Under the pieces are notes generated by a model. That model saw nothing but the letters and a program-made list of their open reading frames with translations, was not told the origin of the DNA and ran no database searches. 40,812 nt of DNA from Myxococcales bacterium (GTDB lineage: Bacteria; Myxococcota; B64-G9): contig JAAZNF010000059.1 of assembly GCA_012798435.1 (NCBI GenBank), positions 1-40,812 of the forward strand. Reading direction: 5' to 3'. Positions 22,248 through 40,332 of the stretch are shown one piece after another (the stretch's first letter is position 1; every line of letters begins with the position of its first letter). The translations under genes and the position numbers were made by a program.

Positions 22248-22268
22248 CGAAGCCGAGGCGCCGCGGCC

Positions 22269-23060: not shown

Positions 23061-23078
23061 GTATCTTCCTGGTGTTGG

Positions 23079-23344: not shown

Positions 23345-24484
23345 ATGTCGAATAATAAAAAAAAACCATATTTCGCAAGATATTATGTGATGTCAGCTGC
23401 GATTGGTGTCTTGTTGATAGCCTCGATTGCCATTTTCCATATTGTTGACTCAGCCGAGGCCGAATCAGCGGGATCGTATGTAACTAGCTCTAAAAACGAA
23501 ATAAAAAGTGGGGACAGGCCCCATTTTGTTGGCAAACATGGCGTGTTTAGGTCTGGCGAAAAGGCACCTGATGTGGCGGCCGAGGCGCAAGAACCGGCAG
23601 GAGAGATAGAGGATTTTATCATGGTTCCCTGGGGCTTCACCAAGGATTCTCTTGGGAGGCTTCGGCCGGAGGAAGGGAACCCGGAAGGCCCCATGAGCTT
23701 CTCCGTTGACGATGAGGGCAGGCTCCTCGTGCTCGACCAGGTCAACGCAAGGCTCCAGGTATTCGAGGATGGTACCTGGGTCAGGTCAATCCCCGTCCCG
23801 GCGGAAACCCTGCACGACTTCGCGATGGCGCCGGATGGCCGGATCGCCGTGCTCGATCGGTTTTCCGGCGATGAAGTGGTGTTCATATCCGACCGCGGGA
23901 AGGTGGAGAGTCGGGTGCGCCTCACCGGCCTGGAGATTCCCGAGGGTGGGTTGGCCACCGGCTTGTTCTCGCGCCCCGACGGCACCTGGGTCGAGGTCGA
24001 GCACGAGCGGCTGGTCCAGGTGGCGGACGAGCGCGGACAGCCGGTCGCGTCCCGCAGGACCCTGCCCGGCCGGCCCTCGCGAGACGGTCGCTGGTTGCTC
24101 CAGGCATTGCGCGAGGGGCCCGACGCCGCGGTGGTGCTGGTCCGCCCGGCGAGCGATCCAGAAGCGGTGCCGGTGCTGCTGGCTCGGGTGGAGTTTTTGC
24201 TACCCGTGTTGCAGCTCACCGCTCTGGAGAGCGATCGCGCCGGCCGGGTGTACCTGGCGGCGATCATCGCGCGCTTCGACGAGAGCGATCCCACTCGCGT
24301 GATCGAGGAGTACGAGCCGGTGGTGGTGTTGTCGCCCGAGGGCAGAGAGCTGGGCCGGGTGGTGTTCCCGCCTCGCACCCTGCCGGAGGAAAGCCTTGTC
24401 CCCATCCGCGTCTCTCCCGCCGGAGCCATCTACCAGATGGCCTTCACGGAAGAGGGCGTCGTGTTCAGGAGGGCTGTGCTATGA
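23345..24484 (+). CDS. Membrane-anchored propeller-like (NHL-type) protein
   Basis: A 379-residue protein. The N-terminus (NNKKKPYFARYYV, then AAIGVLLIASIAIFHIV) is an uncleaved-type signal or anchor. After a 45-residue linker comes 'IMVPWGFTKDSLGR' and repeated beta units: 'MSFSVDDEGRLLVLDQVNARLQVFEDG', 'DFAMAPDGRIAVLDRFSGDEVVFI', 'LTALESDRAGRVYLAAI', 'IRVSPAGAIYQMAF'. This is the NHL/six-bladed propeller style. The first 70 codons are AT-rich and include an in-frame REP-like element (KSGDRPHFVG), whereas the rest has normal GC. ATG 23333 and 23390 are alternative starts; none has a clear ribosome site. It overlaps the next gene by 4 nt (ATGA). Confidence 0.7.
   Translation: MSNNKKKPYFARYYVMSAAIGVLLIASIAIFHIVDSAEAESAGSYVTSSKNEIKSGDRPHFVGKHGVFRSGEKAPDVAAEAQEPAGEIEDFIMVPWGFTKDSLGRLRPEEGNPEGPMSFSVDDEGRLLVLDQVNARLQVFEDGTWVRSIPVPAETLHDFAMAPDGRIAVLDRFSGDEVVFISDRGKVESRVRLTGLEIPEGGLATGLFSRPDGTWVEVEHERLVQVADERGQPVASRRTLPGRPSRDGRWLLQALREGPDAAVVLVRPASDPEAVPVLLARVEFLLPVLQLTALESDRAGRVYLAAIIARFDESDPTRVIEEYEPVVVLSPEGRELGRVVFPPRTLPEESLVPIRVSPAGAIYQMAFTEEGVVFRRAVL
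23478..23530. repeat. REP-like element inside coding sequence
   Basis: GGGGACAGGCCCC at 23510-23522, flanked by AAAAGT on the left and ATTTT on the right, which makes an imperfect hairpin. The preceding ATGTAACTA...TAAAAAC (23478-23496) resembles the left part of the repeats at 203 and 303, so a longer unit seems conserved. It lies in frame in the linker of the propeller-like protein without breaking the reading frame. Confidence 0.65.
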
Positions 24485-26232
24485 AGCCACTTGCGCTTGT
24501 TGTGGTGACCGCCGCCGTCGTTTTCTCGGGCAGGGCGGCCATCGCCGAATGTCCGAGCATCTCCCGCGACGACATCGTCCGCCTGTGCAACCAGGCCATG
24601 GGATACTCCTATTACTGGGGTCACGCCAGCTGGCGCAGCGACGGCGCCTCCCACGGTTCGTGCTCGGGAAGCTGCCCCAACTGCACCCACTCCGGGCAGT
24701 ACGGGGCGGATTGTTCCGGTCTGGCCGGCAAGGTGTGGCAGGTGCCCCGCGCCAGCGCCGTGACCGAGGACTACCATCCGTACTCCACCTACAACTTCCG
24801 CTATGAAACCACCCACTGGACCCGAGTGGCCCGCGGCGGAACCATGATCCGCGGCGACGCGCTGGTGTACAACAGCAACGGCAGCGGGCACATCATGATC
24901 TACGACAGCGGGGACGCCTGGGGCACGCCCAAGGTGTGGGAATGCAAGGGCTGCTCCTACGGCTGTGTGCACGGCAGCCACTCCATCTCGACGAGCTACA
25001 TCGGCATCCGCCGGCACAACCTGGCCACCCAGCCCGCCCAGGGAAAGCTCCAGGGCACGGTGTACGTGGACAAGGGATCGGGGAGCGACGACATGTCACA
25101 GCGCCTGCCCGGCGCCACCGTCTCCACCGCGGGCAAGACCGCGACCGCGCGCGACGGCGACGCCTACTGGTCGTTCACCCTCGACGCCGGCGGTTACACC
25201 GTCAGCGCCGCGATGAGCGGCTACCACAGCGCGAGCCGCTCCTGCTCCGTGCCCGAGGGTGGCGAAACCTGGTGCTCCATCGGGTTGACGGCGGTGTGCA
25301 CGCCGAGCTGCGCCGGCAAGGTCTGCGGCCCGGACGGCTGCGGCGGGAGCTGCGGAAGCTGCGGCGCCGACCAGGCGTGCAACGCCGGAAAGTGCGAGTG
25401 TGTCATGCAGTGCGGGAGCCGGGAGTGCGGCCCCGATCCGGTGTGCGGCGCCTCCTGCGGGACCTGCGGTGACGGCACCCGCTGCTCCGCGGCCGGGGTT
25501 TGCGAGTGTGTGCCGGCCTGCCAGGGCCGGGAGTGTGGCCCGGACGGCTGCGGCGGGAGCTGCGGCGGGTGTCCGCCGGGGTTGCTCTGTGACGCATCGG
25601 GTCTGTGTCAGGCCTGCGTCCCCGAATGCGCCGGCCGGGTGTGTGGCCCGGATCCATTGTGCGGTCAGAGCTGCGGCACCTGTCCTGCGGGCCAGGCGTG
25701 TCAGGACGGCCAGTGCCTGGCCTGTGTGCCGGACTGCGCGGGGCGTAGCTGCGGCCCCGACCCGCGCTGCTCCATGCGCTGCGGCGTGTGCGCAGCCGAG
25801 CTTCTCTGCGACGCCGCCGCGGGCACTTGTCAGACCATTCCTCCCGACCGGGGAAAGGTCTTCGGCACAGTGCGCGAGCGGCGCCAGGGCGCGCGGGAGC
25901 AGGACGAGGGGCCGGTGGTTCCGCGGGCGTCCATCCGGCTGGATGGCCAGGTGCAGGCCGCGGCCGATGAAGAGGGCTACTTCGAGTTCTCGGTCGGGCC
26001 GGGAGAGCACCTCATCGAAGCCAGCGCGGAGAAGTTCTCCGCCGGTTCCGTCACCTGCACCATCGCCGGCGGCGCCCACGCCGATTGCTCCGTGCTGCTC
26101 GATCGGCTCGGTACGGACCCCGAGGACGAGGTCGTGGTCCTGGGAGGGTGCGGCACCGGCGGAGGGCGCTCGCTGTCTTTGCTCGGGCTTGCGCTGGCCG
26201 GTCTGCTCATGGCCCGGCGGCGCCGCGTCTGA
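24481..26232 (+). CDS. Secreted NlpC/P60-like hydrolase with Cys-rich repeats and MYXO-CTERM tail
   Basis: A 583-residue protein. Signal peptide 1-23 (VVVTAAVVFSGRAAIA). Residues about 25-165 look like an NlpC/P60-CHAP papain-like domain: catalytic Cys78 in YGADCSGL and His137 in SGHIMIY. A carboxypeptidase-regulatory-like beta domain follows (about 188-270). Then five Cys-rich repeats (about 272-450) have the form C-x3-C-x-G-(K/R)-x-C-GPD-x-x-C-G. A second CarboxypepD-like domain (about 455-545) precedes a GGCGTGGG, hydrophobic, RRRRV tail. The tail is a MYXO-CTERM signal, so the protein should be surface-anchored. It may cleave peptidoglycan peptides or cap peptides at the cell surface. It is translationally coupled to the propeller-like gene. 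Confidence 0.85.
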   Translation: MKPLALVVVTAAVVFSGRAAIAECPSISRDDIVRLCNQAMGYSYYWGHASWRSDGASHGSCSGSCPNCTHSGQYGADCSGLAGKVWQVPRASAVTEDYHPYSTYNFRYETTHWTRVARGGTMIRGDALVYNSNGSGHIMIYDSGDAWGTPKVWECKGCSYGCVHGSHSISTSYIGIRRHNLATQPAQGKLQGTVYVDKGSGSDDMSQRLPGATVSTAGKTATARDGDAYWSFTLDAGGYTVSAAMSGYHSASRSCSVPEGGETWCSIGLTAVCTPSCAGKVCGPDGCGGSCGSCGADQACNAGKCECVMQCGSRECGPDPVCGASCGTCGDGTRCSAAGVCECVPACQGRECGPDGCGGSCGGCPPGLLCDASGLCQACVPECAGRVCGPDPLCGQSCGTCPAGQACQDGQCLACVPDCAGRSCGPDPRCSMRCGVCAAELLCDAAAGTCQTIPPDRGKVFGTVRERRQGAREQDEGPVVPRASIRLDGQVQAAADEEGYFEFSVGPGEHLIEASAEKFSAGSVTCTIAGGAHADCSVLLDRLGTDPEDEVVVLGGCGTGGGRSLSLLGLALAGLLMARRRRV

Positions 26233-26249: not shown

Positions 26250-26933
26250 TTACTTCTTGCGAGGCGCGGCCTTCTTCCCGGTGACGGGTTTCTTTCGGGC
26301 GACCTTCTTCGGCGCGGGGCGCGGAGGCTTCTTCCGGGAAGCGGCCGGCGGACGGGGCCGGGCAGCGGCCTTGGGCGCCGGTTTCGCGTCGGGCGGGCCC
26401 TTGCCTGCGGCTTTCTTTCGTGGTGCGGCAGATTTCTGGATGTCACGGACACCTGGCAGATCGCGAACGGGCCAGGCAAACAGCTCGCCGGTGGAGGGTG
26501 TGAGCTCCCACTCGGCGCAGCGGGCCAGGGCGGCGTCGGGAGGAACTCCCTGCCGGATGAGCTGATTCATGCGGTTGCGAGCGCGCTCTGTCAACCGCCG
26601 GCCGGGCGGCTTCTCGCCCAGGGCGCGAATCACCTCCGCCGAGAGCCACTGGCAGAACTCCTCCACGGCGCTGCGCTCGGCCCCCTCCACGAACCAGTCG
26701 TAGAAGGGCTGCCGGCGGAAGGCGTCCAGGGCGAAACCCTCGGCGGTGCGCGCCTCATCGTGGATGCAAAATCCCAGGATCGGTTCGGTCACGCGTCGCA
26801 CCAGCCAGCAGGTGGAATAGCCCTCCTCGTTCGCGACCGGGGTGCCGAACATCTTCTCCAGCACCGAAAAAGGTGCCCGCAGGCGGGCCTGGCATGCCGG
26901 AACCATGGAGATTTCCTGGGTTGTGACGTACAC
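26250..26933 (-). CDS. Protein with histone-H1-like Lys/Ala/Pro-rich basic tail
   Basis: A 227-residue protein from GTG 26933 (GGGAGGA 5-6 nt ahead); ATG 26906 is an alternative. The N-terminal 150 residues are a coherent but unrecognised domain ('APFSVLEKMFGTPVANEEGYSTCWLVRRVTEPILGFCIHDE', 'FYDWFVEGAERSAVEEFCQWLSAEVIRALGE'). The last 60 or so are Lys/Arg/Ala/Pro-rich (SAAPRKKAAGKG ... RKKPPRPAPKKVARKK ... KKAAPRKK), like eukaryotic H1 and bacterial Hc1/AlgP tails, which bind DNA or RNA. It is possibly a nucleic-acid-binding regulator. Its first 179 bases lie inside the 3' end of the upstream membrane-protein frame, an unusual same-strand overlap. Confidence 0.65.
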   Translation of the reverse strand: MYVTTQEISMVPACQARLRAPFSVLEKMFGTPVANEEGYSTCWLVRRVTEPILGFCIHDEARTAEGFALDAFRRQPFYDWFVEGAERSAVEEFCQWLSAEVIRALGEKPPGRRLTERARNRMNQLIRQGVPPDAALARCAEWELTPSTGELFAWPVRDLPGVRDIQKSAAPRKKAAGKGPPDAKPAPKAAARPRPPAASRKKPPRPAPKKVARKKPVTGKKAAPRKK

Positions 26934-28569
26934 GCATCCTCCCGGTTGGGGGCGACGGTTGGGGAGTAAAACAGGCCACCGATGGGGTGTCAAGCCACGC
27001 AGGCTTGGCCTGGCAACGCAGCACCTCGCGCCGGGCCCAGTCGAAGGCGCGTTCCTCCCGCGGCTCCGGCGTTCCCCGCCAGGCCAGCATGGGCCCGAGC
27101 AGGAGAATGAAAGCGCCCGCGCGCGCCATCTTCACAACGGCGCGCCCCTCTCCCGCGAAGAGCATGCCGAGGCAGATGCCGATGACGAGCAAGGCCATGG
27201 GCAGGACCGCCAAGAGCGAGCCGAGCCCGCCGAGGCTGCCCAGGGAAGGAGAGAGACAGCCCGCCGCGAGCAGGCGGACGGAGAAGTCGGCCAACGGGTT
27301 CGAGAAATCCGGCGGAAAGCCGCCGAAGGTGGCCAGCGGCAGCGCGTGTGCGACGATGGACAGGGGTAGCAGCACGGGAAGAGCGTGCCGTGCCAGCCGG
27401 GCGACGAGGTCGCGGCTCGCAAGCAGGCGCCCCAGGCTCAGGACGACAAAGGGGATCAGCGGACACAAGTGCCGCGCGCTGAAACTCCAGCCCCAGGCCA
27501 CCGGGTCGAGCGCCGACGCCAGGAGCAGATACCCGACGCTACCGGCCGCGATGGCCAGCGAGAGCGGCCGTCCTGTCCGGGGGTCCGGGTGGCGGAGCCT
27601 GGCGAACGTGCCCCACAGCCCGAACAGCAGCCACGGGGAGAAGAACAGCAGTCCGCGCGTGGAAGAGAACAGCGCCTCCAGCAGGTGCCCGGCCGACGGC
27701 GCTCCTAACCCGAACAGCCCCCGGTTGTGGACCTCGGCGAACGGCGCGTGCAGCAGGTGGCCGTACCCCGGCTGCCAGATCCCGCCGAAGCAGGCGAGGT
27801 GGTAAGCGACCAGTATCCCCGTGGGAGCCACCGCGCCCAGCAGGCCCCACAGCAGCGTCCTTACACGCTCTCTGGCTCCGGCCACCGCGGCCAGCGCCAG
27901 CGGCAGGGCCAGGAGAACCGCCGGGTACTCGGTCAGCACCGCGCCACCGAGCAACCCGCCGGCCAGCGCACCGCGCCAGGGCCGACTCTGCTCGCGCTCC
28001 TGGAGAATGAGCGGGATCGCCGCTAGCAGAAAGAAGGCGCACAGCTGGTGCCCGTAGAGCAAGTTGCCGTAGGGCAACGCCGCCGTGCCCATCCCGTAGC
28101 CGAGCGCGAGCAGAAGGCGCCATCGCAGGGAAAGCGTCCACAACGCGAGCAGCGTAAAGAGGAGCCACGCGGTGGCCGCGGTGGGGATGGCCGCGAGCGC
28201 GATCCGCAGTGCCCGCAAGAGCGCGGTGTTGGAGACCGCGGCCGCATCCCCTCCGGCGGCGCCGAGGAGGCACAGGTACACGGGCACACCCACGAGCCCC
28301 ACGCCGGGCGCCTTGTCCGAGAACAGCCGCCCGCCGTGCCGGGCCAGATCGGTGATGTACCCGTAGCGCGCCACCGGTCCGTCCAGCGAGAAGCTGCCGT
28401 CGTCCACGATGGCGCGGGTGAGGTAGAGGCGGGTCAGCTCGTTGGGAGAGCCGAGTTCTGGAAAGAAGGGAAAGAAGTAGATGCAGGCGAAAAAGACCGC
28501 CACCACCGTGCCCAGCCCGGCCAGCCGTTCCCGTCGCGCCAGCGTCGCTTGGAGAGCGCCGGTGTTCAT
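26755..28569 (-). CDS. Polytopic membrane protein, GT-C glycosyltransferase-like
   Basis: A 604-residue protein from ATG 28569 with about ten or more hydrophobic helices. The first loop after helix 1 has 'FPELGSPNELTRLYLTRAIVDDGSFSLDGPV...DKAPGVGLVGVPVYL'. An acidic (DD) motif in the first extracytoplasmic loop is what GT-C enzymes (PMT/ArnT-like lipid-sugar transferases) use. 'KAPG' and 'WGWSFSARHLCPLIPFV' also fit that group. Substrate unknown; it might decorate the co-encoded lipoproteins. The last 60-70 residues (after 'EVLRCQAKPAW') read through into the next gene with low-complexity sequence, suggesting the original stop was lost or a frame error exists. Confidence 0.65.
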   Translation of the reverse strand: MNTGALQATLARRERLAGLGTVVAVFFACIYFFPFFPELGSPNELTRLYLTRAIVDDGSFSLDGPVARYGYITDLARHGGRLFSDKAPGVGLVGVPVYLCLLGAAGGDAAAVSNTALLRALRIALAAIPTAATAWLLFTLLALWTLSLRWRLLLALGYGMGTAALPYGNLLYGHQLCAFFLLAAIPLILQEREQSRPWRGALAGGLLGGAVLTEYPAVLLALPLALAAVAGARERVRTLLWGLLGAVAPTGILVAYHLACFGGIWQPGYGHLLHAPFAEVHNRGLFGLGAPSAGHLLEALFSSTRGLLFFSPWLLFGLWGTFARLRHPDPRTGRPLSLAIAAGSVGYLLLASALDPVAWGWSFSARHLCPLIPFVVLSLGRLLASRDLVARLARHALPVLLPLSIVAHALPLATFGGFPPDFSNPLADFSVRLLAAGCLSPSLGSLGGLGSLLAVLPMALLVIGICLGMLFAGEGRAVVKMARAGAFILLLGPMLAWRGTPEPREERAFDWARREVLRCQAKPAWLDTPSVACFTPQPSPPTGRMRVRHNPGNLHGSGMPGPPAGTFFGAGEDVRHPGRERGGLFHLLAGATRDRTDPGILHPR

Positions 28570-28619
28570 ACGGATGGATCCATTCGCGTGCCCGACCGAG
28601 CCGGCATGCGGGCCGGGGG

Positions 28620-29093
28620 TTACTGCATGGGGGTCTGGATGTCCACCCGCGCGAAGAAGTGGCAGGTGGCGTCGGAGTATATCTCCACCAGGTGATCCCC
28701 CGCCTGGCGCACCTTCTTGCCCTGTGTGAAGATGCGGTCGGTGCCGGCCATCTGGAAGAGATCCTGGCCCTTGCTCTCCCAGGTGTAAGAGACGTGGCAG
28801 CCGGGCTCGTACCAGATGATCTCGGTGTCCTCCCCCGGATGCTTGCGGGTCTTGAAGAACAGCTTCACCACGATGGTGGTGTCGGCCGGGGTGGAGACCA
28901 CGAAGTTGCGGTAGCCGGGGAAGTCGCCCTCGATGTAGTGGGACTCGTCCAGGTTGCAGCCCGCGGTGGTCTGACACACCGGCACGTTGGCCATGCAGGG
29001 ATCGGAGTCGGCCCCGGCGATGAAGTCGCCCTCCTGGACGCCGCAGGCGAAGAGCAGGCCGAGCACCAAGAGCAGGAACAATACACGCGCCAC
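28620..29093 (-). CDS. Small lipoprotein of the surface operon
   Basis: A 157-residue lipoprotein from GTG 29093 (GAGAGGG 4-10 nt ahead; no ATG fits). Signal VLFLLLVLGLLFAC. The mature part has six Cys (in PCMANVPVC, AGC, GCHVSY, TCHFF) and beta strands: 'FPGYRNFVVSTPADTTIVVKLFFKTRKHPGEDTEIIWYEPGCHVSYTWESKGQDLFQMAG'. This suggests a jelly-roll or PPC-like beta-sandwich. Family not recognised. It lies 14 nt after the preceding Cys-rich lipoprotein gene and 50 nt before the membrane protein gene. Confidence 0.7.
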   Translation of the reverse strand: MARVLFLLLVLGLLFACGVQEGDFIAGADSDPCMANVPVCQTTAGCNLDESHYIEGDFPGYRNFVVSTPADTTIVVKLFFKTRKHPGEDTEIIWYEPGCHVSYTWESKGQDLFQMAGTDRIFTQGKKVRQAGDHLVEIYSDATCHFFARVDIQTPMQ

Positions 29094-29107
29094 GTCGCCC
29101 TCTCTCG

Positions 29108-30235
29108 CTACCGCCCCACCACGCCCTGTAGCTCGGCGGACAGATCCAGCAGACCCACCGCCCGCAGGACGGTGCCGTCCAGAAGCTGCACCAGCTTGAA
29201 GGAGTGGCGTTCGATCTTGAAGTTGAAGTTGGTGGCCGTGTCCCGCGCCAGCAGAGCGATGCCCTCGGCCGGGATCTCCAGACAGCCGTCGTCGAAGGTG
29301 ATGCAGCGCAGCTTCTTCCAGGGCGTGTCCGAGCCACTGCCGGGCGAGAGCAGCACCTCGACGTAGTCCCCGTTGCCCTTCTTCCAGGAGACGGTCAGGG
29401 CCTCGGTGCGGTGTTCGTCGATGCCCAGGCTGGGCCCGTCGGCCAGCGCCTCCCCGGAGTGCTGGTCCAGGTGGGTGAGCGTCGGCGCCTCGGGCACGCG
29501 CAACGTCTCCGCGAACGCCGGGTAGTCCTGTTCGCCACTCCCACTGGCGAACACCTGGATGCCGACCTCGGTACCGGCGTAGGCCCGCAGAGGCAACACC
29601 TTGGGCGGGAGGCGGTATTTCTTGTCGGGATCGGGGACGAGCTCGGCGGCGCCCCCCGTCCAGGTGATGCCGGTGAAGGCCACCCGCTCCACCCGCAGGG
29701 GCGTGGGGCTGCCTTCCTGGCAGGCGAAGTTCGTGCCGCAGCTCTCCGAGTTGCAGCGGACCGCGTCGCACTGGCCGGTGTCGCGGTCGCAGCGCAGGGC
29801 CGGATCGCACTCGGCGTCGTCCGTGCAGCTCTGGTGCGGGGCGAAGCAGGACCCGGCCCGGCACACGAAGGGCGCGGGGCAGGGGTGCGTGTCGTCGCAG
29901 GGGTCGACGGGGCGGCAGCGGCGCAGCACCTCGGGCCGGCCCTCGTACAAAAAGCACGCGTCCGACAGCAGCGTGCGCTGGGCCACGTACACCTGGTAGT
30001 CGGTCATGTCCTCGAAGTGGGCCTGGACCAGGGTGGTGTGCTCGGCGCCGGCGCCGATGATGTTCAGCTCGCTCACGCCCACCGTTCCGATCCAGAACGT
30101 GGCCAGATCGGTGTCGTCGTCGACGACCGCGGGCATGTCGTCGTGGCCCGGGCCGCACGCGGAGTCGCTCGCGCCGCAGCCGGTGAAGCTCCACACCGCG
30201 AGAACGACCGCCGAGATCCGTAGGAGTGTTCGCAT
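29108..30235 (-). CDS. Cys-containing lipoprotein of the surface operon
   Basis: A 375-residue lipoprotein; signal and lipobox MRTLLRISAVVLAVWSFTGC. A beta-rich N-terminal part ('LATFWIGTVGVSELNIIGAGAEHTTLVQAHF') is followed at about 105-170 by a Cys-rich segment with 'C-x-x-D-x-x-C' units (CDDTHPCPAPFVC, CTDDAECDPALRC, CNSESCGTNFAC). These are the same unit type as in the long VWA lipoproteins next door. Then comes a C-terminal beta domain ('YRLPPKVLPLRAYAGTEVGIQVFASG', 'LTVSWKKGNGDYVEVLLSP') that reads like an Ig/DUF-type sandwich. No enzyme motif. Gaps of 14 and 47 nt to its neighbours support one operon. Confidence 0.75.
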   Translation of the reverse strand: MRTLLRISAVVLAVWSFTGCGASDSACGPGHDDMPAVVDDDTDLATFWIGTVGVSELNIIGAGAEHTTLVQAHFEDMTDYQVYVAQRTLLSDACFLYEGRPEVLRRCRPVDPCDDTHPCPAPFVCRAGSCFAPHQSCTDDAECDPALRCDRDTGQCDAVRCNSESCGTNFACQEGSPTPLRVERVAFTGITWTGGAAELVPDPDKKYRLPPKVLPLRAYAGTEVGIQVFASGSGEQDYPAFAETLRVPEAPTLTHLDQHSGEALADGPSLGIDEHRTEALTVSWKKGNGDYVEVLLSPGSGSDTPWKKLRCITFDDGCLEIPAEGIALLARDTATNFNFKIERHSFKLVQLLDGTVLRAVGLLDLSAELQGVVGR

Positions 30236-30282
30236 GGTCCCATCCTAATGGTGGGCGACAGCAAGATCAACTTGCCGGATAG

Positions 30283-32952
30283 CTATTTCTCGTCCACCGC
30301 GAAGAAGTCGCCGTCCCCCAGCGGGATCTCGGCCACGTTGGGTTCCTTCTTGCCGTTTGCGAACTTCATCTGGTAGAGCGCCCGGCGGAAGATGGAATAG
30401 GCGGTCGGGTTGTTGAGCGGGGTCTCGGCGAAGTACAGCCACAGATCGTTGCGGCCCGGCCCCATGCCGGGGATGGTCTCGAGCGTCTCCACCAGGGTGA
30501 TGTTTTTCACCTTGAAGGTGATGCAGTTCTTGTCGGCCATGCCCACCACGATCGTCTCACCCATGCGGCAGGGCTTCCCCGCGGGGCAGTCGCCGTCGCT
30601 GGCGCACAGCGTGACCGGTTGAGCGCCGTCGCACCAGAAGCCATCCAGGGGAGTGAGGTTGGCGTCCACCTTCACCGTGATCCAGGTCGGTTTCTGGTGT
30701 TCGTTCACCCGGCTGCCGGCCGGGCAGCTCCAGCTCTGGCACGGCGGTGGGGTGCACACGCCGGATTCGGGGTCGCACTCCTGCCCGCTCAGGCAGCGCA
30801 CGTTGATGCAGCGATCGGTCAGGCACTTGCCCAGCATCAGATCGCAGCGCTGCCCGTCGGCGCACTCCATGGCGCGGCAGTCGGGGATGCACAACCCCTG
30901 GGAGGAGTCGCATACCTCGCCGGCCTTGCAGGTCACCAGGGCGCAGGGATCCGGCACGCAGGCGCCGGTGTTGGGATCGCACCAGTTCCCCACCGAGCAG
31001 GCCGGGTTGCAGTCCTTGACGCAGGAGCAGGCCGAGAAGAGCTGGTAGATGCCGCTGCCGGTGATCTCGATCTCCGGCCCGGGCTGGCTGTCCATGGGAT
31101 CCTTCCACGCCAGCGTCGGCAAGGGGCGGGGCTGGCCGTCCGGGCGCAGGGTGCCGGGCGGGTAAAAGTACAGCATGCCAGCGCCCTCGGCAGAGCGGCC
31201 CGAGACGTCGGTGATCTCTACCCCGGTGATGGTCACCGGCTGGGCGGAGAACGGCACGATGCGCAGCCCCTCGTCCACCACCTTGTAGCGGTAGGCGTCC
31301 CCGGCGCGCGAGGTGATGTCGTTGGACAGCGGGTCCAGGTGCTCGCGGATCTCCTGGCCGTTGGACAGGCCGTCCATGTCCGAGTCCAGCAACTGATCGG
31401 GTTTGAGGTAGTTCGTCCCCGCGTTGAACTCGATGCGATCGGGGTAGCCGTCGCGGTCGGAATCGAACAGCCCCGTATCGGTGCCGAGGATCTTCTCCTC
31501 GCAGTCGTTGAGGCCGTCTCCATCCCGATCGCTGTAGGGGAAGTCCAGCCCGTAGCAGGCCTGTGGTAGGTCGAAGCGCAGCGGATCCAGGTTGAGCGTG
31601 GCGAACACGACCTCCAGCCGATCGCCCAGCATGTCCCCATCGCTGTCGGCGTTGGCCGGGTCGGTGTCGCTGCCGCTCATCAGGCCCTTGTTGAAGAAGT
31701 CTTCCACACAGGAGCAGTTCCACAGGTCCCGGCAGGTCCCGGCCAGCATCTCACCGTAGCAGCGCTCTTCGGCGTCAGACATCCCGTCGGTGTCGCTGTC
31801 GGCCAGGAGACGCCCATTGATGGAGTGAGTGTTGAGGTTGGTCACCATGAAGGTCTTCATGACGAAGACGCTCTCGGTGGTGTCGAACTTGAGGGTGGTG
31901 AAGTTGAGCTTCCCCTCGTCGAAGAAACGCACGTAGTCGCCGTGGCCCTGGAAGGCCAGCGCCTGGAGCAGCTGGGCCACCTGGTCGTTCTGGGCGCCGT
32001 TGGGATCGTCGCAGGGGTAGGTGGGGCAGCAGTCCTCGCGCCGCGTGCACTCGCGCGAGACGTCGTTGGAGCACACCCGGATGGGGGCGCAGCGGGTGCT
32101 GCAGTTCTGCGGGTCGGCGCAGCAATCGGTGGCGAGCGTGCAGGTGAGGGTGTGGTCGTCGGCGCACAGGCGCACCGCGTCGTTGCAGGTCTCGCCCCCA
32201 GAACAGTTGGCCGGGCACGGCGTGGTCGAGTTGCAGTTGCGCGGCTGCGGCGTGCCCTGGCAGGTGCCGGTGGGGTTGTCGATCTGGATGGTGTGGAAGG
32301 CCACCTCGGCCACGCCCTTCTCCTTGCCAAACTTCTCGATCTCGTCCAGCGCGGCCAGGACTGCCGCGCGGTTGGCGGCCAGGCTGCCGTACCCCGGGTC
32401 GGGCGGGCCATGGGCGATGAAGATGAACACGTAGCGGGTGCGCGAGCGCGTGCCCGGGTTGGTGGTGAGGAGATCGCCGGAGAACACGCTGCTGGCCAAC
32501 GACAGGGCGGCGAACCAGTCGCGGCAGCCGCCGCCCACGCAGGCGTCTACCTGGGGATCGAAGTTGACGAGCTCGCCCAGGGCGTTGTTGAGGATGCCGT
32601 AGTCGCGGGTGTAACCGCCCTCGGTGAGCAGCCGGGTGCCGCCGCCGAACTTGATGATGGCCAGCGAGTAGTTGAGGTTGGCCCGGTAACGGTCCACGAT
32701 GTACTGCATGGCCTCCTGGCGCTTGGCCGGGTCGGGGTTCACGTTCCCGTCCCACCCCGAGGTGTCGAACAAGAACATGAGCTTGACCGGGAAACGCCGC
32801 TGGGCCGGGTCGTCGGTGCACACCGTGCCGGACAGGGTGACCTTGTTGGGGATGTTGGGCTCGCGCGAGATCTGGTAGATGTTGGTGTCGGTGCACGCCA
32901 TCCCGGCGAGCGCCGGCAGAGCCGCCACAACCATCATCGCAATCCGTTTCAT
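30283..32952 (-). CDS. VWA-like lipoprotein with thrombospondin-3 and Cys-rich repeats; metal site degenerate
   Basis: An 889-residue protein. Lipobox ALAGMAC (Cys20), GGGAGG ahead of ATG 32952. Residues 40-260 align by eye with the VWA domains of its two paralogues (TVCTDDPAQRRFPVKLMF..., 'TRYVFIFIAHGPPDP'), but the MIDAS motif DxSxS is DTSGW (63-67), so metal-dependent binding is doubtful. A Cys-rich insert follows (about 275-365), then thrombospondin-3 calcium loops (DSDTDGMSD, DSDGDMLGD, DRDGDGLND, DSDMDGLSN). A second Cys-rich block comes later (C-x-x-G-x-x-C-D type), and the shared C-terminal module ('NCITFKVKNITLVETLE...GRNDLWLYFAETPLNNP') ends the protein. It is probably a surface adhesin or structural partner of the other two. 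Confidence 0.85.
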   Translation of the reverse strand: MKRIAMMVVAALPALAGMACTDTNIYQISREPNIPNKVTLSGTVCTDDPAQRRFPVKLMFLFDTSGWDGNVNPDPAKRQEAMQYIVDRYRANLNYSLAIIKFGGGTRLLTEGGYTRDYGILNNALGELVNFDPQVDACVGGGCRDWFAALSLASSVFSGDLLTTNPGTRSRTRYVFIFIAHGPPDPGYGSLAANRAAVLAALDEIEKFGKEKGVAEVAFHTIQIDNPTGTCQGTPQPRNCNSTTPCPANCSGGETCNDAVRLCADDHTLTCTLATDCCADPQNCSTRCAPIRVCSNDVSRECTRREDCCPTYPCDDPNGAQNDQVAQLLQALAFQGHGDYVRFFDEGKLNFTTLKFDTTESVFVMKTFMVTNLNTHSINGRLLADSDTDGMSDAEERCYGEMLAGTCRDLWNCSCVEDFFNKGLMSGSDTDPANADSDGDMLGDRLEVVFATLNLDPLRFDLPQACYGLDFPYSDRDGDGLNDCEEKILGTDTGLFDSDRDGYPDRIEFNAGTNYLKPDQLLDSDMDGLSNGQEIREHLDPLSNDITSRAGDAYRYKVVDEGLRIVPFSAQPVTITGVEITDVSGRSAEGAGMLYFYPPGTLRPDGQPRPLPTLAWKDPMDSQPGPEIEITGSGIYQLFSACSCVKDCNPACSVGNWCDPNTGACVPDPCALVTCKAGEVCDSSQGLCIPDCRAMECADGQRCDLMLGKCLTDRCINVRCLSGQECDPESGVCTPPPCQSWSCPAGSRVNEHQKPTWITVKVDANLTPLDGFWCDGAQPVTLCASDGDCPAGKPCRMGETIVVGMADKNCITFKVKNITLVETLETIPGMGPGRNDLWLYFAETPLNNPTAYSIFRRALYQMKFANGKKEPNVAEIPLGDGDFFAVDEK

Positions 32953-32981
32953 CTCTGCCTCCCGCGGCCCGATGTGTCCGC

Positions 32982-35054
32982 CTAGGGGTTGGGGTTGGCC
33001 GTGCAGGGACAGGCCCAGGCGCCGCCGGCCGGGGTGCACCAGGAGCACTCCGCCGGGCACTCCGGGGTCACGTGCAGGGTGATCTGATAGGGATGGGCGT
33101 AGTCGTAGTGCAGCCGCTGGTACTCCTGGACCACGAAGTAGATGGGCCGGCCGCCATGGTACTCGCCGCACAGGTAGGAGCACTCGTTGTCGCCGAAGGT
33201 GCCCGAGCCGTTGCCTTGCACGTCCCAGCCGAAGGACTCGTCGAAGTCGCCGGGACGGTTCCAGCCGAAGGTCACGTGCATGTCGGAGTTGCCGGCGTAG
33301 CTATAGCTGAAGGACAGGCGGTAGTCCTTCATGGTGTCCTTCTGGTTCACCGGGTTTTGCGCCTCGGCCGGGATGCCCTCCAGCTTGTACCAGTCCTGGT
33401 CGGCGCGGAAGGAGATGTAGCCGGTGAACGGCCCGCAGGTGGCGCCGCCGCCCCCGTCCGGGGTGCAGTTGATGGTGGTGGCGAAGCTCGCGTTCCAGGC
33501 CTTGGTCTCCTCCTCGGAGGTGTTGGTGGCGTAGGGCTGGAAGGTGCTGTTGGGCTCGTTGGCGTCGGGCTCCGGCCGCACCGTGACCGTCAGCGTGTAG
33601 GGGTGCTGCAGGTCGGCGTTCTGGGAAGTGAAGTCGCGCACCAGGATGTAGTAGGTGTCTCCGAACATGGGGGCCACCGTGCGCAGGTGGCGCGGCTCGC
33701 CGGGCACCGCCCAGTCGCGCGCCGGGTTCTGGTCGTCCACGATGTGCCGCATGATCAGGGTGCGGATGCCGCAGCCGCCGGGCAGGCAGATGCCGGCCCC
33801 GCGGCACTTGCCCGAGGCGACGACGCACTCGTGCGAGGGGCACTGGGCGTTGCGGTACTCGGCGAGCTGGCCGCCGCAGTTCCAGGAGAGCAGATCGCAG
33901 TCGCTGTCCTTGGTGCAGGGCGTGCGCGGGTCGGCCACGATGAGGTCCACCGCCGGGTCGATCTCGGGCAGGGTCTGGCAGTTGAGGTCCACCTCGATGA
34001 GGGCGGGGTTGGTATCGCTGGTGCCCGGGGACTGGATCACGTACCAGTCCTGGTCGCCGCGGGTGGCCAGGTAGGCGTCGGACACGGTCGCGCCGCTGCT
34101 GATGGCGGAGGCGTTGCGGAAGTCGTTGTTGCCGGCGCCGGTGCGATCGCGCGAGTCGGGGTTGGCCAGGACCGTGGCGGTCAGGGTGTACCCCACCTCC
34201 AGATCGCTGTCGTCGTTGAAGGCGTCGCTCACCAGGATGTAGTAGGTGCCGGACTCGGCGAGCTGCAGGACGTCCTTGAGCTGGGCGGCGCCCTTCATGC
34301 CATCGGCGATGCTGCCGGTGTTCACCGGCGTCAGCTTGTCCGGGCGGTACACGGTGTAGCTCACGTCCACCGGCGCTGGCCCGCTCGTCGAAAGCTGCAG
34401 GCTCATGATCTGGCCGGCGGCGCTCACCTCGACGCGGAACCAGTCCTGGTCTCCGATGAAGGAAATGAATCCCTTGGCGCCCCCGATGGAATTCGCCTGG
34501 TCGGCGGTGTTGTTGGGCTCATAGGTGTCGGGATCCTTCACCGTGGCGATGGTCAGGAGGTAGTTGGCGCTGGCGCGGGCGTCCTGCTCGTCGCCGCCTT
34601 CGTCGTATACCTCCAGGAAGTATTTGCCGGCCTTGTCGAGGTAGAAGGTCCCCGTGATGTCCGTGACCGCGTCCGACCCGTCGTGATCGCAATGGCTGCC
34701 GATGGCCGCTACGTGGCCGTCCTCAGGCCGGATGCGGTAGCACAGGTCCACTCCCGTCAGCGAGATGGCATTGTACAGGTGCACCTTGACGATGGTGCCG
34801 TCCTCGGGGGCGTTGAACCAGAAGTAGTCCTCGTCGCCACGGGGGCAGATGTAGCCGCTGACCGCCGCGCCGGCGGCGGTGAGTTCCCACTCGGGATCGA
34901 CGTTGTCGCGCTGGGAGGTGTCGCGCTGGCACACGTCGAAGCCCTCGTCGACGTCGCTCTCGCCGCCGTCGGATTGCTGGCTGGTTCCGCAGCCGGCCAT
35001 CCCGGCCACGAACGGCACCGTGAGCACCCATGCCAAAATTGAGATATGACGCAT
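32982..35054 (-). CDS. Lipoprotein with tandem pre-peptidase C-terminal (PPC)-like domains
   Basis: A 690-residue lipoprotein (lipobox VAGMAGC, Cys22). At least four PPC-like beta-sandwiches are recognisable. Each has a 'D-(E/Q)-D-W/Y-(F/Y)' strand (RGDEDYFWF, IGDQDWFRVEV, RGDQDWYVIQS, RADQDWYKLEG), a 'G-x-Y-(F/Y)-(L/I)-x-V' strand (GKYFLEVYDE, GTYYILVSDAF, DTYYILVRDF), 'YTLT(A/V)TV' closers and 'D-x-x-E-P-N-(N/S)-T' openers. PPC domains bind calcium and usually attach to secreted proteases; here no protease is fused. It sits between two VWA paralogues (gaps 29 and 39 nt), so it is likely part of the same surface assembly. A Cys-rich insertion occupies about residues 380-425. Confidence 0.82.
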   Translation of the reverse strand: MRHISILAWVLTVPFVAGMAGCGTSQQSDGGESDVDEGFDVCQRDTSQRDNVDPEWELTAAGAAVSGYICPRGDEDYFWFNAPEDGTIVKVHLYNAISLTGVDLCYRIRPEDGHVAAIGSHCDHDGSDAVTDITGTFYLDKAGKYFLEVYDEGGDEQDARASANYLLTIATVKDPDTYEPNNTADQANSIGGAKGFISFIGDQDWFRVEVSAAGQIMSLQLSTSGPAPVDVSYTVYRPDKLTPVNTGSIADGMKGAAQLKDVLQLAESGTYYILVSDAFNDDSDLEVGYTLTATVLANPDSRDRTGAGNNDFRNASAISSGATVSDAYLATRGDQDWYVIQSPGTSDTNPALIEVDLNCQTLPEIDPAVDLIVADPRTPCTKDSDCDLLSWNCGGQLAEYRNAQCPSHECVVASGKCRGAGICLPGGCGIRTLIMRHIVDDQNPARDWAVPGEPRHLRTVAPMFGDTYYILVRDFTSQNADLQHPYTLTVTVRPEPDANEPNSTFQPYATNTSEEETKAWNASFATTINCTPDGGGGATCGPFTGYISFRADQDWYKLEGIPAEAQNPVNQKDTMKDYRLSFSYSYAGNSDMHVTFGWNRPGDFDESFGWDVQGNGSGTFGDNECSYLCGEYHGGRPIYFVVQEYQRLHYDYAHPYQITLHVTPECPAECSWCTPAGGAWACPCTANPNP

Positions 35055-35093
35055 CGTACCGTCTCCTTTTCGAGGCTGTTCTAGAAGCCCAGG

Positions 35094-38000
35094 TCAGGGA
35101 CCGGGCGCGGAGGTGTCGCCGAAGACCTTGCAGTCCCGATCGGGATCGAACCAGTCGGTGCAGCGGCGGCGGCTGTCGGGGTCCCGCGGCACGCAGCGGC
35201 CCTGGCAGTAGGCGTGGGGGCAGTCCTGATCGGAGGCGCAGTGTTTGACGCAGAAGCCGTTCTCGCAAGCCCAGGTGGCGTCCGGGCAGTCGGCCGGCGC
35301 GCTGCACGAGATGTTCACCGGGTAGAGGCACGAGGGGTTGGTGGCCCCCAGGTTGCAGATGTAGTTCGGGCAGTCCGCGTCGCTGCTGCAGCTCTCGCGG
35401 CCGACGGTGTCGCAGTTCCCGCGGCCGGCGTCCCGCTGGCACAGCATGCCGCCGCCGCACACGTTGTCCTGCGCCTCGCGCTGCGGATTGCAGGAGATGG
35501 CCGGGTCGTTGACGCAGGTGCCGGTGGTGGCCCCGGGGCTGGACTCCCGGCAGAAGGTGAGCGGGCAGTCGAGCGATTCGGTGCAGGGCTTGCCGGGGTC
35601 GGTGGCGCACACCATGTAGGGCCGGCAGAAATTCGGGTTGCAGTCGCCGTCCTGCATGCAGGGGGTGAAGTTCAGCGAGCAGGAGCGGACGCACTGGCCG
35701 CCCGAGGCGCCGCAGTCCTGGGTGGTGCTGCAGGGATCGCCGGTGTAAGCGCAGCGCTGAGAGCCGGTGCACACGTTGACCGGGCATTCGCTGTTCTCCT
35801 GACACTCCTTCACGCAGCGCCGGTTCAGGCATACCTCTCCGGCGCCACACTGGGCGGTGGTGTCGCAGATGTTGGAGCCGAAGTAACAGGCCTTGGCCTG
35901 CTCCGAGCAGCGGTTGAAGGGGCAGTCGAGGTCGAACTGGCAGTAGTCCCCCACCACGTCATTGCAGGAGTAGCCGCGCTCGCCGCGGCACTCGTCGTCG
36001 GTGGCGCAGGAGGTGCCCATGCACACCCCCACCACGGGCTCGCACACCTGGTAGGGGCACTCGCGCGAGTCCAGGCAGGGTTGGATGCGGCAGCGGTGCA
36101 GTTCGTCGTCGCAGGGTTGCACCGGGCAATCGGCGTCGGTGGCGCACTCCAGCGGCGCGCAGGTCCCGCCGTGGTGATCGACGCAGTGGTGGGCCACACA
36201 CAGCGAGTTGCCGGAGACATTCTCGCAGGTGTCCGACAGGTTCGGGCAATCGGCCGCCTGGGCGCAGCGGGTGCGGCAGAACCCCTCCAGACACATCATG
36301 CCGGTCGGGTTGGGGCAGTCCGTGTCGAGCTGGCAGGCGGGAGCGTACTCGTCGGCCCGATCCGGATCGCAGCTCTCGCCGGGGTGACAGTCGTTGGCCG
36401 AGAAGCACGGGACGCGGCAGAAGCCGCTCATGCACTGCGGATCGTTGTCGGGGTTGGAGTCGCCGTCCAGCGGGCAGGCCACCGTCGGGCTGCACGGGGT
36501 GTACTGCGGCAGACACTCCCGCTGCGGGCAGTTGCGGGTGGTGGGGTCTGGCGCGGAGCGGGCCGGATCCATGCACATGCCGGTCACCGGATCGACGGGG
36601 TAGTTGGGGCAGTCCTCGTTCTTGAGGCAGGGAACGCCGATGGGGTACTGGCATTGCTTCTTGTGGGAGTAGGGATCCTCGACGCAGGAGAACCGCGGGC
36701 ATGGGGTGGCCTCGTCGCAGGCCTGTCCCAGCGGCGCCAGGCACAGGTTGTTGCGCGGGTCGCACACGTGGTGGGGACACTCGGAGTCGAGAGAGCAAGG
36801 CGTGCCGGTGGGGCGCTTGAAGTCCCTCTGCTGAAACTTGATCACCCCGGTCGGGGGGTATTTCAGGTCCGAGTCCGGGTAGCGCGGCACGTAGCGCGCC
36901 CGCGCGCAGGCCACCCGGAAGGTGCCGTAGTCGTCGGGATTGTCGAAGGGCGTCTGGCCGACGTACACCATGATGTCGTTGAACCCGGCGGGGGCGCCGG
37001 ACCGGCGCGGCAGGGTGCCCTCCAGCGTGATGTTGGACACGGCGAAGTCGTAGCACTTGCGGCTCTCGAAAGAGCCGGGCCGCAAGGAGAGGTTGTAGCG
37101 GTAGCCCAGGATGGAGAAGCGGGCCGCGTCGTTGATCTGGGGGTTGGTGTGCCAGGCCACCTCGGCGCCGTTCAGCGAGCCGTCGAAGTCGGTGTCCACC
37201 TGGGCGTCGGGCCACACCGGGTTGGTGCCCGAGCGCACCTCGATGATGTCGGGGATGCCGTCGGCGTCGGTGTCGTAGAGCTCGGGGTTGGTGCCGATGA
37301 AGCGCTCCTCGCAGTCCAGGAGGTCATCCCCGTCGCGATCCAGCCGGTCGAGCGCCAGCCGGCAGTCGGCATCGTCGGAATCTAGCGGGTCGAACCCCGA
37401 GCGCCGCAGCCGATACTCCAGAAGATCGGAGAAACCATCGCCGTCCGTGTCCACGAGGCGCGGGTCGGTCCCGATCTCGAACTCCAGCGAGTCCACCAGG
37501 CCGTCGCCGTCGGTGTCGATGGCGTCGCGGTTGGCCCAGGCCGGGTGGGCGTTGAGGTTGGAGACCAGGAAGGCGCCGTCCTTGACCGCGAACGAGCGCT
37601 TGACCGAGGTGAAGTTGATGTCGAGGAAGTTGATCTGCTCGCCGTTCTGGAAGTTGCGGAAGGTGCCGTTGCCGATCTTGGCCAGCCCCTTGAGCAGGGC
37701 CTCGGCCTGCGCCACCACGTAGTCCGGGGTGTTCACCGAGAGGTAGCTGGTGTGGAGGGTGAAGTCGGCCACGTCGAAGCGCGCCGGCAGCGCCATCAGT
37801 TCCTCCACCGCCCGGCGGATGCTGGACGGGGTGTTGATGTCGTTGTCGAAGTCCTGCGGGTAGGGCAGGCCGTCGCTGAGGAAGATCACCACGTACTTGG
37901 TGCGAGCGCGCTCGTCCACCGTGGTGATGCTCATGTCCATGGCCAGGGTGGCCTCGGCCAGGGCGATGGCCGCCTGGTAGCTGGTGTTCCCGCCGCCGGT

Positions 38001-38444
38001 TTGCAGCGAGATCAGCGCCCGCAGCAGCGAGGGCAGGTCGTTGGTGAAACCGAACTGATCGTTGACCCCGTCGCCGTTGGTGTCCCGCTGCGTGGCCACG
38101 TTGGCCGCCGAGTCGAAACGGATGATGGCGTAGGAGACCCCGGAGTCGTAGCGGAACTTCTGGATCACCTCCCACACCGCGCGCAGCCGGCCGGGGTAGT
38201 CGTTAGGGGTCGGCGGAGGATCGGTCACGTTGGTGCTCTGCGAGCAGTCGATGATGAACATGATCTTGACCGGGAACAAGAGCTCGTCCGGGTGCTCGGT
38301 GCAGAAACTGCCCTTGACGGAGAGCTTGTTGTCGTCCTGATCGGTGCCCGAGCCGGCGTTCTCGTAGATATCGGCGTCGGTGCAGGCGGCCGCCGCCAGC
38401 AGACACACGCCAACCCACGCCGCCCGGAGGAACCACGTTCTCAT
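35094..38444 (-). CDS. Giant VWA lipoprotein with thrombospondin-3 repeats and a long Cys-rich stalk
   Basis: A 1116-residue protein. Lipobox LAAAAC (Cys21). VWA domain about 45-275 with an intact MIDAS DCSQS (66-70) and 'TKYVVIFLSDGLP' (the Asp of MIDAS motif 3). Next are thrombospondin-3 loops (DTDGDGLVDSLE, DTDGDGFSD, DRDGDDLLDCEE, DTDADGIPD) and the shared module ('CYDFAVSNITLEGTLP...GFNDIMVYVGQTPFDNP'). The final 550 residues are dozens of C-x(2)-D-x(2)-C-P-style units, which look like a rigid disulfide-bonded stalk. VWA lipoproteins such as Myxococcus CglB act as adhesins in gliding motility; this could be an equivalent. Closest relatives in the window are the genes at 30283 and 38479. 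Confidence 0.88.
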   Translation of the reverse strand: MRTWFLRAAWVGVCLLAAAACTDADIYENAGSGTDQDDNKLSVKGSFCTEHPDELLFPVKIMFIIDCSQSTNVTDPPPTPNDYPGRLRAVWEVIQKFRYDSGVSYAIIRFDSAANVATQRDTNGDGVNDQFGFTNDLPSLLRALISLQTGGGNTSYQAAIALAEATLAMDMSITTVDERARTKYVVIFLSDGLPYPQDFDNDINTPSSIRRAVEELMALPARFDVADFTLHTSYLSVNTPDYVVAQAEALLKGLAKIGNGTFRNFQNGEQINFLDINFTSVKRSFAVKDGAFLVSNLNAHPAWANRDAIDTDGDGLVDSLEFEIGTDPRLVDTDGDGFSDLLEYRLRRSGFDPLDSDDADCRLALDRLDRDGDDLLDCEERFIGTNPELYDTDADGIPDIIEVRSGTNPVWPDAQVDTDFDGSLNGAEVAWHTNPQINDAARFSILGYRYNLSLRPGSFESRKCYDFAVSNITLEGTLPRRSGAPAGFNDIMVYVGQTPFDNPDDYGTFRVACARARYVPRYPDSDLKYPPTGVIKFQQRDFKRPTGTPCSLDSECPHHVCDPRNNLCLAPLGQACDEATPCPRFSCVEDPYSHKKQCQYPIGVPCLKNEDCPNYPVDPVTGMCMDPARSAPDPTTRNCPQRECLPQYTPCSPTVACPLDGDSNPDNDPQCMSGFCRVPCFSANDCHPGESCDPDRADEYAPACQLDTDCPNPTGMMCLEGFCRTRCAQAADCPNLSDTCENVSGNSLCVAHHCVDHHGGTCAPLECATDADCPVQPCDDELHRCRIQPCLDSRECPYQVCEPVVGVCMGTSCATDDECRGERGYSCNDVVGDYCQFDLDCPFNRCSEQAKACYFGSNICDTTAQCGAGEVCLNRRCVKECQENSECPVNVCTGSQRCAYTGDPCSTTQDCGASGGQCVRSCSLNFTPCMQDGDCNPNFCRPYMVCATDPGKPCTESLDCPLTFCRESSPGATTGTCVNDPAISCNPQREAQDNVCGGGMLCQRDAGRGNCDTVGRESCSSDADCPNYICNLGATNPSCLYPVNISCSAPADCPDATWACENGFCVKHCASDQDCPHAYCQGRCVPRDPDSRRRCTDWFDPDRDCKVFGDTSAPGP

Positions 38445-38478
38445 GACATACCTCTCTTGCGAAGGCCCGCCATTCGAC

Positions 38479-40332
38479 TCACCTGCGCGAGTCGGTCACG
38501 CAGTCTCCGCCGAAGCTCAGATCCAGAAGGTACGGCTTCTTGAAGTCGGTGTCGCTGATGGTGATCTCGCCGTTGAAGGGCACCTTGTAGTCGGGCTCGA
38601 TGTACTGCGGCCGCACGCAGGCCACCCGGTAGTCGCCCACGTCCAGGGGGTTGTCCGACGAGCTCTGGTTGAACCACAGCATGATGTCGTTGAAGCCGCG
38701 GCTGCCGCTGCGGTTGCGGTCGAGGGTGGTCACCAGGCTCAGGTAGCGCACGTCGAAACTGTAGCAGTACTGGTCCCGGTTGTTGGTCCGTCCCTCCTTG
38801 AGCTCGTACCAGTAGCGGCTGGTGTTCCACAAAGAAGGATCGGAACGCGCCGGATCGGTGTGGTACATGACCTCGTCCAGGTTGCGTTGGCCGTCCGAGT
38901 CGAGGTCCTGCATGAGGTCGTTCGTGACGGGGTCCATCCCCATCAAGATCTCGATCCGGTCGGGGACGCCATCGCTGTCCACGTCCACCATGCGATCGGT
39001 GCGGTCGCGAAGCTCGCTCGGGAAGAACAGCACCTCCTCGCAGGCCAGCATCCCGTCCCCGTCGCCGTCGTTGGTGTCCTGGCAGGGCGTGTCCGGCCGG
39101 CTGGCGTCCAGCGGATCGAAGCCGGCGTTGCGCAGGCGATACTCCACGAAGTCGCCGTAGTAGTCGCCGTCGCTGTCCGGGCTCAGCGGATCGCTGCCCA
39201 GGCGCTGCTCCTCCTCGTCGTTCAGGCCGTCGCCGTCCGAGTCGGGCTGGAAGCGGTCGATGACCGGCCGGGCGCTGCGGTTGTCGACCAAAAAGCTCTT
39301 CGACACGTAGGTGCGCTTGATGGAGGTGTAGTCGATCTGGAGGAAGTTGATGTCCTGACCCGAGGTGAAGTCGCGGAAGGTGCCGTTGCCGCGGCGGGAG
39401 ATCTCCCGCAGCAAGGCCCGCCCGCGATCCGGATCCAGGTGGTAGGCCTCCTCGGCCGCGGCGCACAGCGGCGAGGTGGGGTTGCCGAACTGGTCGCGGC
39501 AATACAGGAAGGCCGAGTGGATGCGCATGTCGCCCACGTGGAAGTTGGCCTTGAGGTCCATCATGGCGTCGACGAGCTGGAAGAGCTGGTAGTTCTGGTT
39601 GTAGTCGGCGCCCTCCTCCAGCTCGGGGAAGATCCCGTTGGCGGCGTGCTGCGAGAACACCGCCTCCATGTCCAGGTTGACCACCGCCCCGGTGGCGTCC
39701 ATGGTTTGGCAGATCACGTGGTAGTCTTCCTCGCACTCCGGGGTGTAGCGCGGGCTGGCGGGGTCGGTGGCGCAGCCGAAGCACACCGGGTCCGGGGTGC
39801 CGTCCGAGAAGAAGATGACCACGTACTTGCTGCGGGTGAGCTCGGGCAGGCCGCCGCCCGAGGTGTTGACCTTGTTCATGTCGTTGAGCAGGGCCTCGTA
39901 GGCCCGGCCCAGGGCGCCCTGGTAGTCGGTCATGGAGTCGGCCTGCAGCAGGCCGCCCGAGCCGAAGACGTTGGCCTCGTCGCCCTGCAGGTGCACGAAC
40001 CCGCCGGTCAGGTCGGACACCACGCCGTTGAACTTGATCACGTCGAAGTACACGCTGGGGTTGTTGGCGTAGCGGCGCACCACCTGACGCACCGCCTCCA
40101 CGCGGCGGTCGCCTTCGTCGGTCTGCTGCATGCTGCCCGAGCAGTCCACGATGAACATGATCTTCACCGGGAACTCCACGTCGGAGGGCGGCTGGGTGCA
40201 GACCTCCCCGTGAATGGTGAGCAGGTTGTCCACCTCCGGATGGAAGATGCTGCTGCTCACCTCGATCCCGCTATCGGTGCAGGCGGATGCGAAAAGCAGC
40301 ACCACGAAAAACGAGAGAAAGCTCCGTTTCAT
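38479..40332 (-). CDS. VWA lipoprotein with thrombospondin-3 repeats
   Basis: A 617-residue protein. ATG 40332 is chosen for GGAGGT 4 nt upstream and for the signal MKRSFLSFFVVLLFASAC (lipobox Cys18); the frame extends 20 codons further without a site. VWA domain about 45-335 with intact MIDAS DCSGS (63-67) and 'SKYVVIFFSDGTPDP'. Thrombospondin-3 loops follow (DSDGDGLND, DSDGDYYGD, DGDGDGMLACEE, DVDSDGVPD, DLDSDGQRN). It ends with the shared module ('CYSFDVRYLSLVTTL...GFNDIMLWFNQSSSDNP') and has no Cys-rich stalk, so it is the minimal form of the three paralogues. It appears to be the first gene of the long minus-strand operon. Probable role: calcium- and metal-dependent adhesion at the outer surface. 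Confidence 0.88.
   Translation of the reverse strand: MKRSFLSFFVVLLFASACTDSGIEVSSSIFHPEVDNLLTIHGEVCTQPPSDVEFPVKIMFIVDCSGSMQQTDEGDRRVEAVRQVVRRYANNPSVYFDVIKFNGVVSDLTGGFVHLQGDEANVFGSGGLLQADSMTDYQGALGRAYEALLNDMNKVNTSGGGLPELTRSKYVVIFFSDGTPDPVCFGCATDPASPRYTPECEEDYHVICQTMDATGAVVNLDMEAVFSQHAANGIFPELEEGADYNQNYQLFQLVDAMMDLKANFHVGDMRIHSAFLYCRDQFGNPTSPLCAAAEEAYHLDPDRGRALLREISRRGNGTFRDFTSGQDINFLQIDYTSIKRTYVSKSFLVDNRSARPVIDRFQPDSDGDGLNDEEEQRLGSDPLSPDSDGDYYGDFVEYRLRNAGFDPLDASRPDTPCQDTNDGDGDGMLACEEVLFFPSELRDRTDRMVDVDSDGVPDRIEILMGMDPVTNDLMQDLDSDGQRNLDEVMYHTDPARSDPSLWNTSRYWYELKEGRTNNRDQYCYSFDVRYLSLVTTLDRNRSGSRGFNDIMLWFNQSSSDNPLDVGDYRVACVRPQYIEPDYKVPFNGEITISDTDFKKPYLLDLSFGGDCVTDSRR

Follow-up and report, generated by a model that had tools for sequence, protein, structure and literature searches.

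Gene content of the run

The window, which is the whole of a 40,812-bp contig from an assembly of 5.05 Mb that is 97% complete, carries eight consecutive genes on the minus strand, called here G1 to G8 (Table 1). Spacings of 34, 39, 29, 47, 14 and 50 nt, then one overlap, separate these genes; upon re-measurement this layout agreed exactly with the one given in an initial annotation. The same annotation counted six lipoproteins, and lipoboxes were indeed found in six of the eight genes, G1 to G6. It also described three paralogues combining a VWA domain with calcium loops. G1, G2 and G4 all matched VWA_2 and TSP3_bac in Pfam, and they contain 6, 6 and 4 DxDxDG-type loops, respectively, versus about 0.4 in shuffled sequences (some 10 fold over expectation); the description holds, the VWA match of G4 being weak and below cut-off (E 0.011). 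The metal-site motif of the VWA domain reads DCSGS in G1, DCSQS in G2 and DTSGW in G4. The DxSxS and SDG/TDG motifs were kept by G1 and G2 in almost all species and were variable in G4, where the metal site (DTSGW) looks degraded. A sequence search of the PDB returned a single, marginal VWA match for G1, and no match for G2, of which the last 561 aa contain 82 cysteines.

Among the other lipoproteins, G3 matched PPC (PF04151) in two stretches, and corresponds to the protein with tandem PPC-like domains noticed initially. The model of G6 (pLDDT 89) is similar to the sandwich of collagen-binding/PPC type seen in collagenases (best E 2.8e-5, TM 0.50/0.65). G5, found in the window's family only, is beta-rich, and a fold search gave weak Ig/FN3-like matches, none of them firm.

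Table 1. Features of the run and of its upstream end, in window coordinates.
Feature	Position	Strand	Basis or remark
mtsC 3′ end (MYXO-CTERM surface protein), cut by contig end	40617-40811	-	MtsC model positions 365-427, E 3.6e-6
Strong hairpin resembling an intrinsic terminator, mtsC-G1 interval	40594-40556	-	17-pair stem, 11 G-C, T-rich tail; ATACTTTTTG
G1, MtsD-like lipoprotein, VWA + TSP3, 617 aa	38479-40332	-	NF047639, 262 bits, E 1e-77
G2, second VWA + TSP3 lipoprotein ('MtsE' position), 1116 aa	35094-38444	-	Pfam, NCBIfam, synteny
G3, PPC-domain lipoprotein, 690 aa	32982-35054	-	PF04151; equal placement in relatives
G4, third VWA + TSP3 lipoprotein, 889 aa	30283-32952	-	Pfam; clade position
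G5, beta-rich lipoprotein, 375 aa	29108-30235	-	window's family only
G6, small lipoprotein, 157 aa, PPC/collagen-binding-type fold	28620-29093	-	also in Myxococcaceae-like mts locus
G7, GT-C-like membrane protein, 604 residues, neighbour	26755-28569	-	homologues away from mts
G8, basic-tailed protein, neighbour	26250-26906	-	unmatched at related loci

The run had been taken to start at G1. An mtsC gene, truncated by the end of the window, in fact lies upstream of it. A sigma-70-type promoter was looked for and none was found. Elsewhere in the window, a gene convergent with G8 (24481-26232, plus strand) encodes a Cys-rich protein with a MYXO-CTERM-like tail (GCGTGGG...LLMARRRRV), two adjoining short genes (10501-11147, minus strand) resemble TatA/TatB-type translocase components, and the G+C content of positions 22001-24000 is 0.59, versus 0.63-0.73 in the rest.

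Relation to the mts locus

The 64-aa fragment encoded upstream of G1 aligned with the MtsC tails of relatives and matched the end of the MtsC model. In a genome of the same family (G001), a full MtsC is encoded directly upstream of G1 (579 bits for a cut-off of 350), and full MtsC genes were likewise found upstream of the G1 genes of G004, G005, G007 and G008; in G003, of the same family too, no MtsC was present directly before G1. The window's own genome has MtsC on another contig, C87 (548 bits, same cut-off), which carries an FHA/sigma54 activator, a full MtsC, and an end placed inside a second MtsC. A further contig, C69, ends inside another MtsC. The ends of C87 and C69 have 177 31-mers in common, which accounts for the assembly break. 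From synteny, we infer that C87 joins the window contig (C111). Nearly identical mtsC copies were seen at the ends of all three contigs, and MtsC is multi-copy in the window's family. The FHA-domain sigma54 activator lies directly upstream of mtsC in this family (L045 7381-8769, on C87; L022 5377-6744; L027 4025-5377; L028 4744-6090), and is likely a dedicated mts regulator.

The NCBIfam model of MtsD matched G1 (1e-77), G2 (5e-60) and G4 (3e-29), all below its 800-bit cut-off. G1 itself fell short of this curated threshold (262 bits, NF047639), though it belongs to the MtsD clade and occupies the MtsD place. In a quick, midpoint-rooted tree, G1 and MtsD formed one clade (SH-aLRT 93), G2 split into two parts, and G4 was sister to a VWA-type gene found upstream of mtsC in Myxococcaceae-like genomes (SH-aLRT 94). 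G1 and G2 are, as judged from these relationships, separate old paralogues. A gene-neighbourhood search had been proposed initially, with synteny in several genomes as the sign of a system: the order MtsC, MtsD (G1), second VWA/TSP3 protein (G2, for which we use the working name 'MtsE', meaning the place after MtsD) and PPC lipoprotein (G3) was present in nearly all loci fetched, from about 12 families. Counterparts of G1, G2, G3 and G6 were all recognised in the Myxococcaceae-like mts locus. MtsC was detected in 68 of 117 genomes of the phylum, well beyond the Myxococcaceae-like group. Genes at related loci were called with a codon-usage caller, which called none in one genome (G018), yet tblastn finds the locus there.

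Two further features of these neighbourhoods were recorded. A GMC oxidoreductase gene lies beside mtsC or mts in four families (f1, f5, f8 and f28; L046 9082-11298, L021 1182-3406, L029 17811-19999), and the small gene ahead of it resembles gluconate 2-dehydrogenase subunit 3. In Myxococcaceae-like mts loci, a small lipoprotein gene is placed on the opposite strand, with the PPC gene on one side and the G6 homologue on the other (L020 15720-16169, minus strand; L021 3974-4414, plus strand).

The mts locus of Myxococcus is reportedly the subject of Zhang et al. 2007, in J Bacteriol 189:7937. A role of the MYXO-CTERM protein MtsC (spelled MstC) in cohesion, S-motility and development is given in PMC11980579, where Zhang et al. 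2007 is cited; that mutants lose cohesion is known for Myxococcus through the same paper. Our comparison was drawn from genomes and from the NCBIfam models NF047638 (MtsC) and NF047639 (MtsD). On homology and gene order, we conclude that G1 to G6 and the truncated mtsC represent a divergent version of the mts locus for cell-cell cohesion, in an uncultured lineage of Myxococcota type. The initial annotation knew of no named system with this gene set and proposed an undescribed multi-component adhesion or envelope complex; given the MtsC/MtsD models and synteny, the locus does have a name, and of that proposal multi-component surface adhesion remains and "undescribed" does not.

Association with a Glt-type machine

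In many genomes, the genes adjoining mts encode GltG-like (FHA plus TonB-type tail), GltC-, GltD-, GltE-like, CglF-like and OMP_myx_plus proteins, and in four families (f1, f3, f5 and f28) TolQ/ExbD are also present beside mts. In the genome G012, a single-strand run comprises MtsC, MtsD, 'MtsE', PPC, lipoprotein, VWA, CglF, GltG, OMP, GltC, GltD, an unassigned gene, GltE, TolQ, ExbD and ExbD, the largest gap being 101 nt. In family f1, the Glt block is headed by a second MtsC. It is because such a machine accompanies the locus that the comparison with CglB, made in the initial annotation, is apt.

The mts-linked GltD class was defined by its own profile (at least 435 bits, versus at most 350 for other paralogues). 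Among the 117 genomes of the phylum, 65 had both MtsC and this class, 3 MtsC only, 2 the GltD class only and 47 neither (Fisher 1.6e-26, phylogeny ignored). The same counts were 32/3/2/33 by genus (7e-14) and 15/0/1/14 by family (2e-7), phylogeny being ignored here as well. Of the three genomes with MtsC only, two (G025 and G066) carry a GltG-like gene next to mts. MtsC and the GltD class were found at most 40 kb apart in 39 genomes, which belong to 15 genera and five families, a figure that depends in part on queries taken from mts-linked loci; other GltD paralogues were found within 40 kb of mts in none of 40 genomes. The window's own genome has the class too: on the contig C51, a GltD with 70% identity to the G003 protein is accompanied by GltC, GltE and two OMPs. 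C51 ends inside gltG and C69 in MtsC, and these contig breaks mask the arrangement in this genome. A divergent Glt-like cluster (GltG, CglF, GltE, GltD, GltC and two OMPs), with no mts genes alongside, is present on C92 of the same genome (52001-72000, L097).

One genome assembled as a single contig (G049) contains four Glt-type loci, at 1.57, 2.33, 3.97 and 6.01 Mb. Their positions are linear with the M. xanthus locus tags 1327 (cluster G5), 1922 (cluster G4), about 3377 (nfs) and 4867 (glt), with r2 0.998 and residuals to 128 kb, in a comparison of positions. We take locus tag 3377 to be nfsG. Given this linearity, the mts-linked copy is probably the G5 cluster of M. xanthus. The function of that cluster was given as unknown in 2011, and motility was unaffected in a mutant of its gltD-type gene, MXAN_1327 (Luciano et al., PMC3169522), even though mts has an effect on S-motility; this result argues against any essential function in S-motility.

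Since mts travels with a copy of a Glt-type machine, a motor may be at work on the adhesins. Our best reading, to which we give a probability of roughly 0.7, is that G1 to G6 and MtsC form a cohesion complex that depends on calcium and that a third Glt-type machine carries and perhaps drives. The MYXO-CTERM tail of MtsC would bring this protein to the surface, where it would make up one adhesin together with G1 to G6, predicted outer-membrane lipoproteins. The metal sites of the VWA domains of G1 and G2 may attach to a ligand presented by an adjacent cell or by the matrix, the TSP3 segments, once loaded with calcium, would be stiff stalks, and the PPC-like domains of G3 and G6 could contribute glycan or protein binding. 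A dedicated envelope machine, made of the GltG/C/D/E-like and CglF-like proteins and beta-barrels, with its own TolQ/ExbD in several lineages, would hold the complex and probably move or expose it. The Mts proteins would then be its surface cargo, by analogy with CglB, which, according to a review (PMC12288465), is a surface lipoprotein with a VWA domain and is loaded into the outer-membrane portion of the gliding apparatus. For the more specific proposal, in which Mts is the surface module of the orphan G5 cluster and a proton-driven envelope machine works the cell-cell cohesion of the phylum, carrying or exposing a calcium-dependent multi-VWA adhesin, we see even odds.

Alternatively, the cohesion adhesin encoded by mts might be passive, and common regulation or ancestry of envelope genes, not a physical machine, would explain why it lies near a Glt-like cluster. 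The normal motility of the MXAN_1327 mutant fits with this and weighs against our best reading, as does the location of the Glt cluster away from mts in eight families (f10, f12, f15, f16, f20, f21, f26 and f29). Near-perfect co-occurrence at the genus and family levels, the tightly packed run of G012 and the MtsC heading the f1 Glt block argue against it, and we regard a passive adhesin as rather unlikely, though still a serious contender. That G1, G2 and G4 serve the main gliding machine as substrate adhesins of CglB/CglD type is very improbable: they are VWA surface lipoproteins with weak CglD matches, but the GltD class linked to mts is another one, gliding-type GltG is found in genomes lacking both MtsC and that class (G047 in f8, and several of f13), and the CglD matches are confined to the TSP3 part (see below).

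The GT-C enzyme and the basic-tailed protein, initially counted as members of the run, were dropped from it. G7 has homologues in all 8 other genomes of the family, each on contigs apart from mts, and none at related mts loci; G8 had no match at any related locus. Good G7 homologues align up to about residue 520 of 604, which leaves the 152-nt G7/G8 overlap in a tail that has no counterpart in them. Judged from this distribution, G7 and G8 are bystanders, outside the mts locus. A hitherto undescribed envelope system of eight genes, with these two acting for example in lipoprotein glycosylation, has for it the tight spacing as far as G7 and the lack of a terminator-like site between G6 and G7. 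It can practically be dismissed, since the presence of mtsC next door and the distribution of G7 already contradict it, as do MtsC/MtsD homology and synteny and the failure of G7 and G8 to be conserved with the run.

Comparison with known systems

The mts locus itself is already known, and what is new here is its joining to a class of Glt-type machine; no published report of the link was found in the literature searched, whose coverage was limited. The link gives the G5 cluster a testable function, and points to a way for an inner-membrane motor to influence adhesion between cells.

CglD shares TSP3 repeats with the window proteins, and a VWA_2 domain has been ascribed to it (PMC4488436). CglD identity was rejected, as G1, G2 and G4 scored 31, 42 and 30 bits with NF033765, for a cut-off of 400. 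The Glt/Agl machine with CglB and its Nfs paralogue (PMC3169522, PMC3858216, PMC12288465) likewise combine a VWA surface lipoprotein with GltC/D/E/G-like, CglF-like and outer-membrane barrel proteins, whether or not a TolQ/ExbD motor is present. They differ in that the mts-linked GltD is a distinct class, that several VWA/TSP3 proteins and MtsC are present on the mts side whereas the gliding machine has CglB, and that the main cluster has another genomic location.

Closest is the Myxococcus mts locus, as seen in Myxococcaceae-like genomes, where MtsC, MtsD-type, second VWA/TSP3, PPC-type and G6-type lipoproteins occur in equal order. In the window and its family, however, G4 follows G3, whereas the VWA-type gene there is upstream of mtsC; G5 is additional; G2 has a cysteine-rich tail of about 560 aa; G1 is far under the MtsD cut-off; MtsC is often duplicated, and an FHA/sigma54 activator lies upstream.
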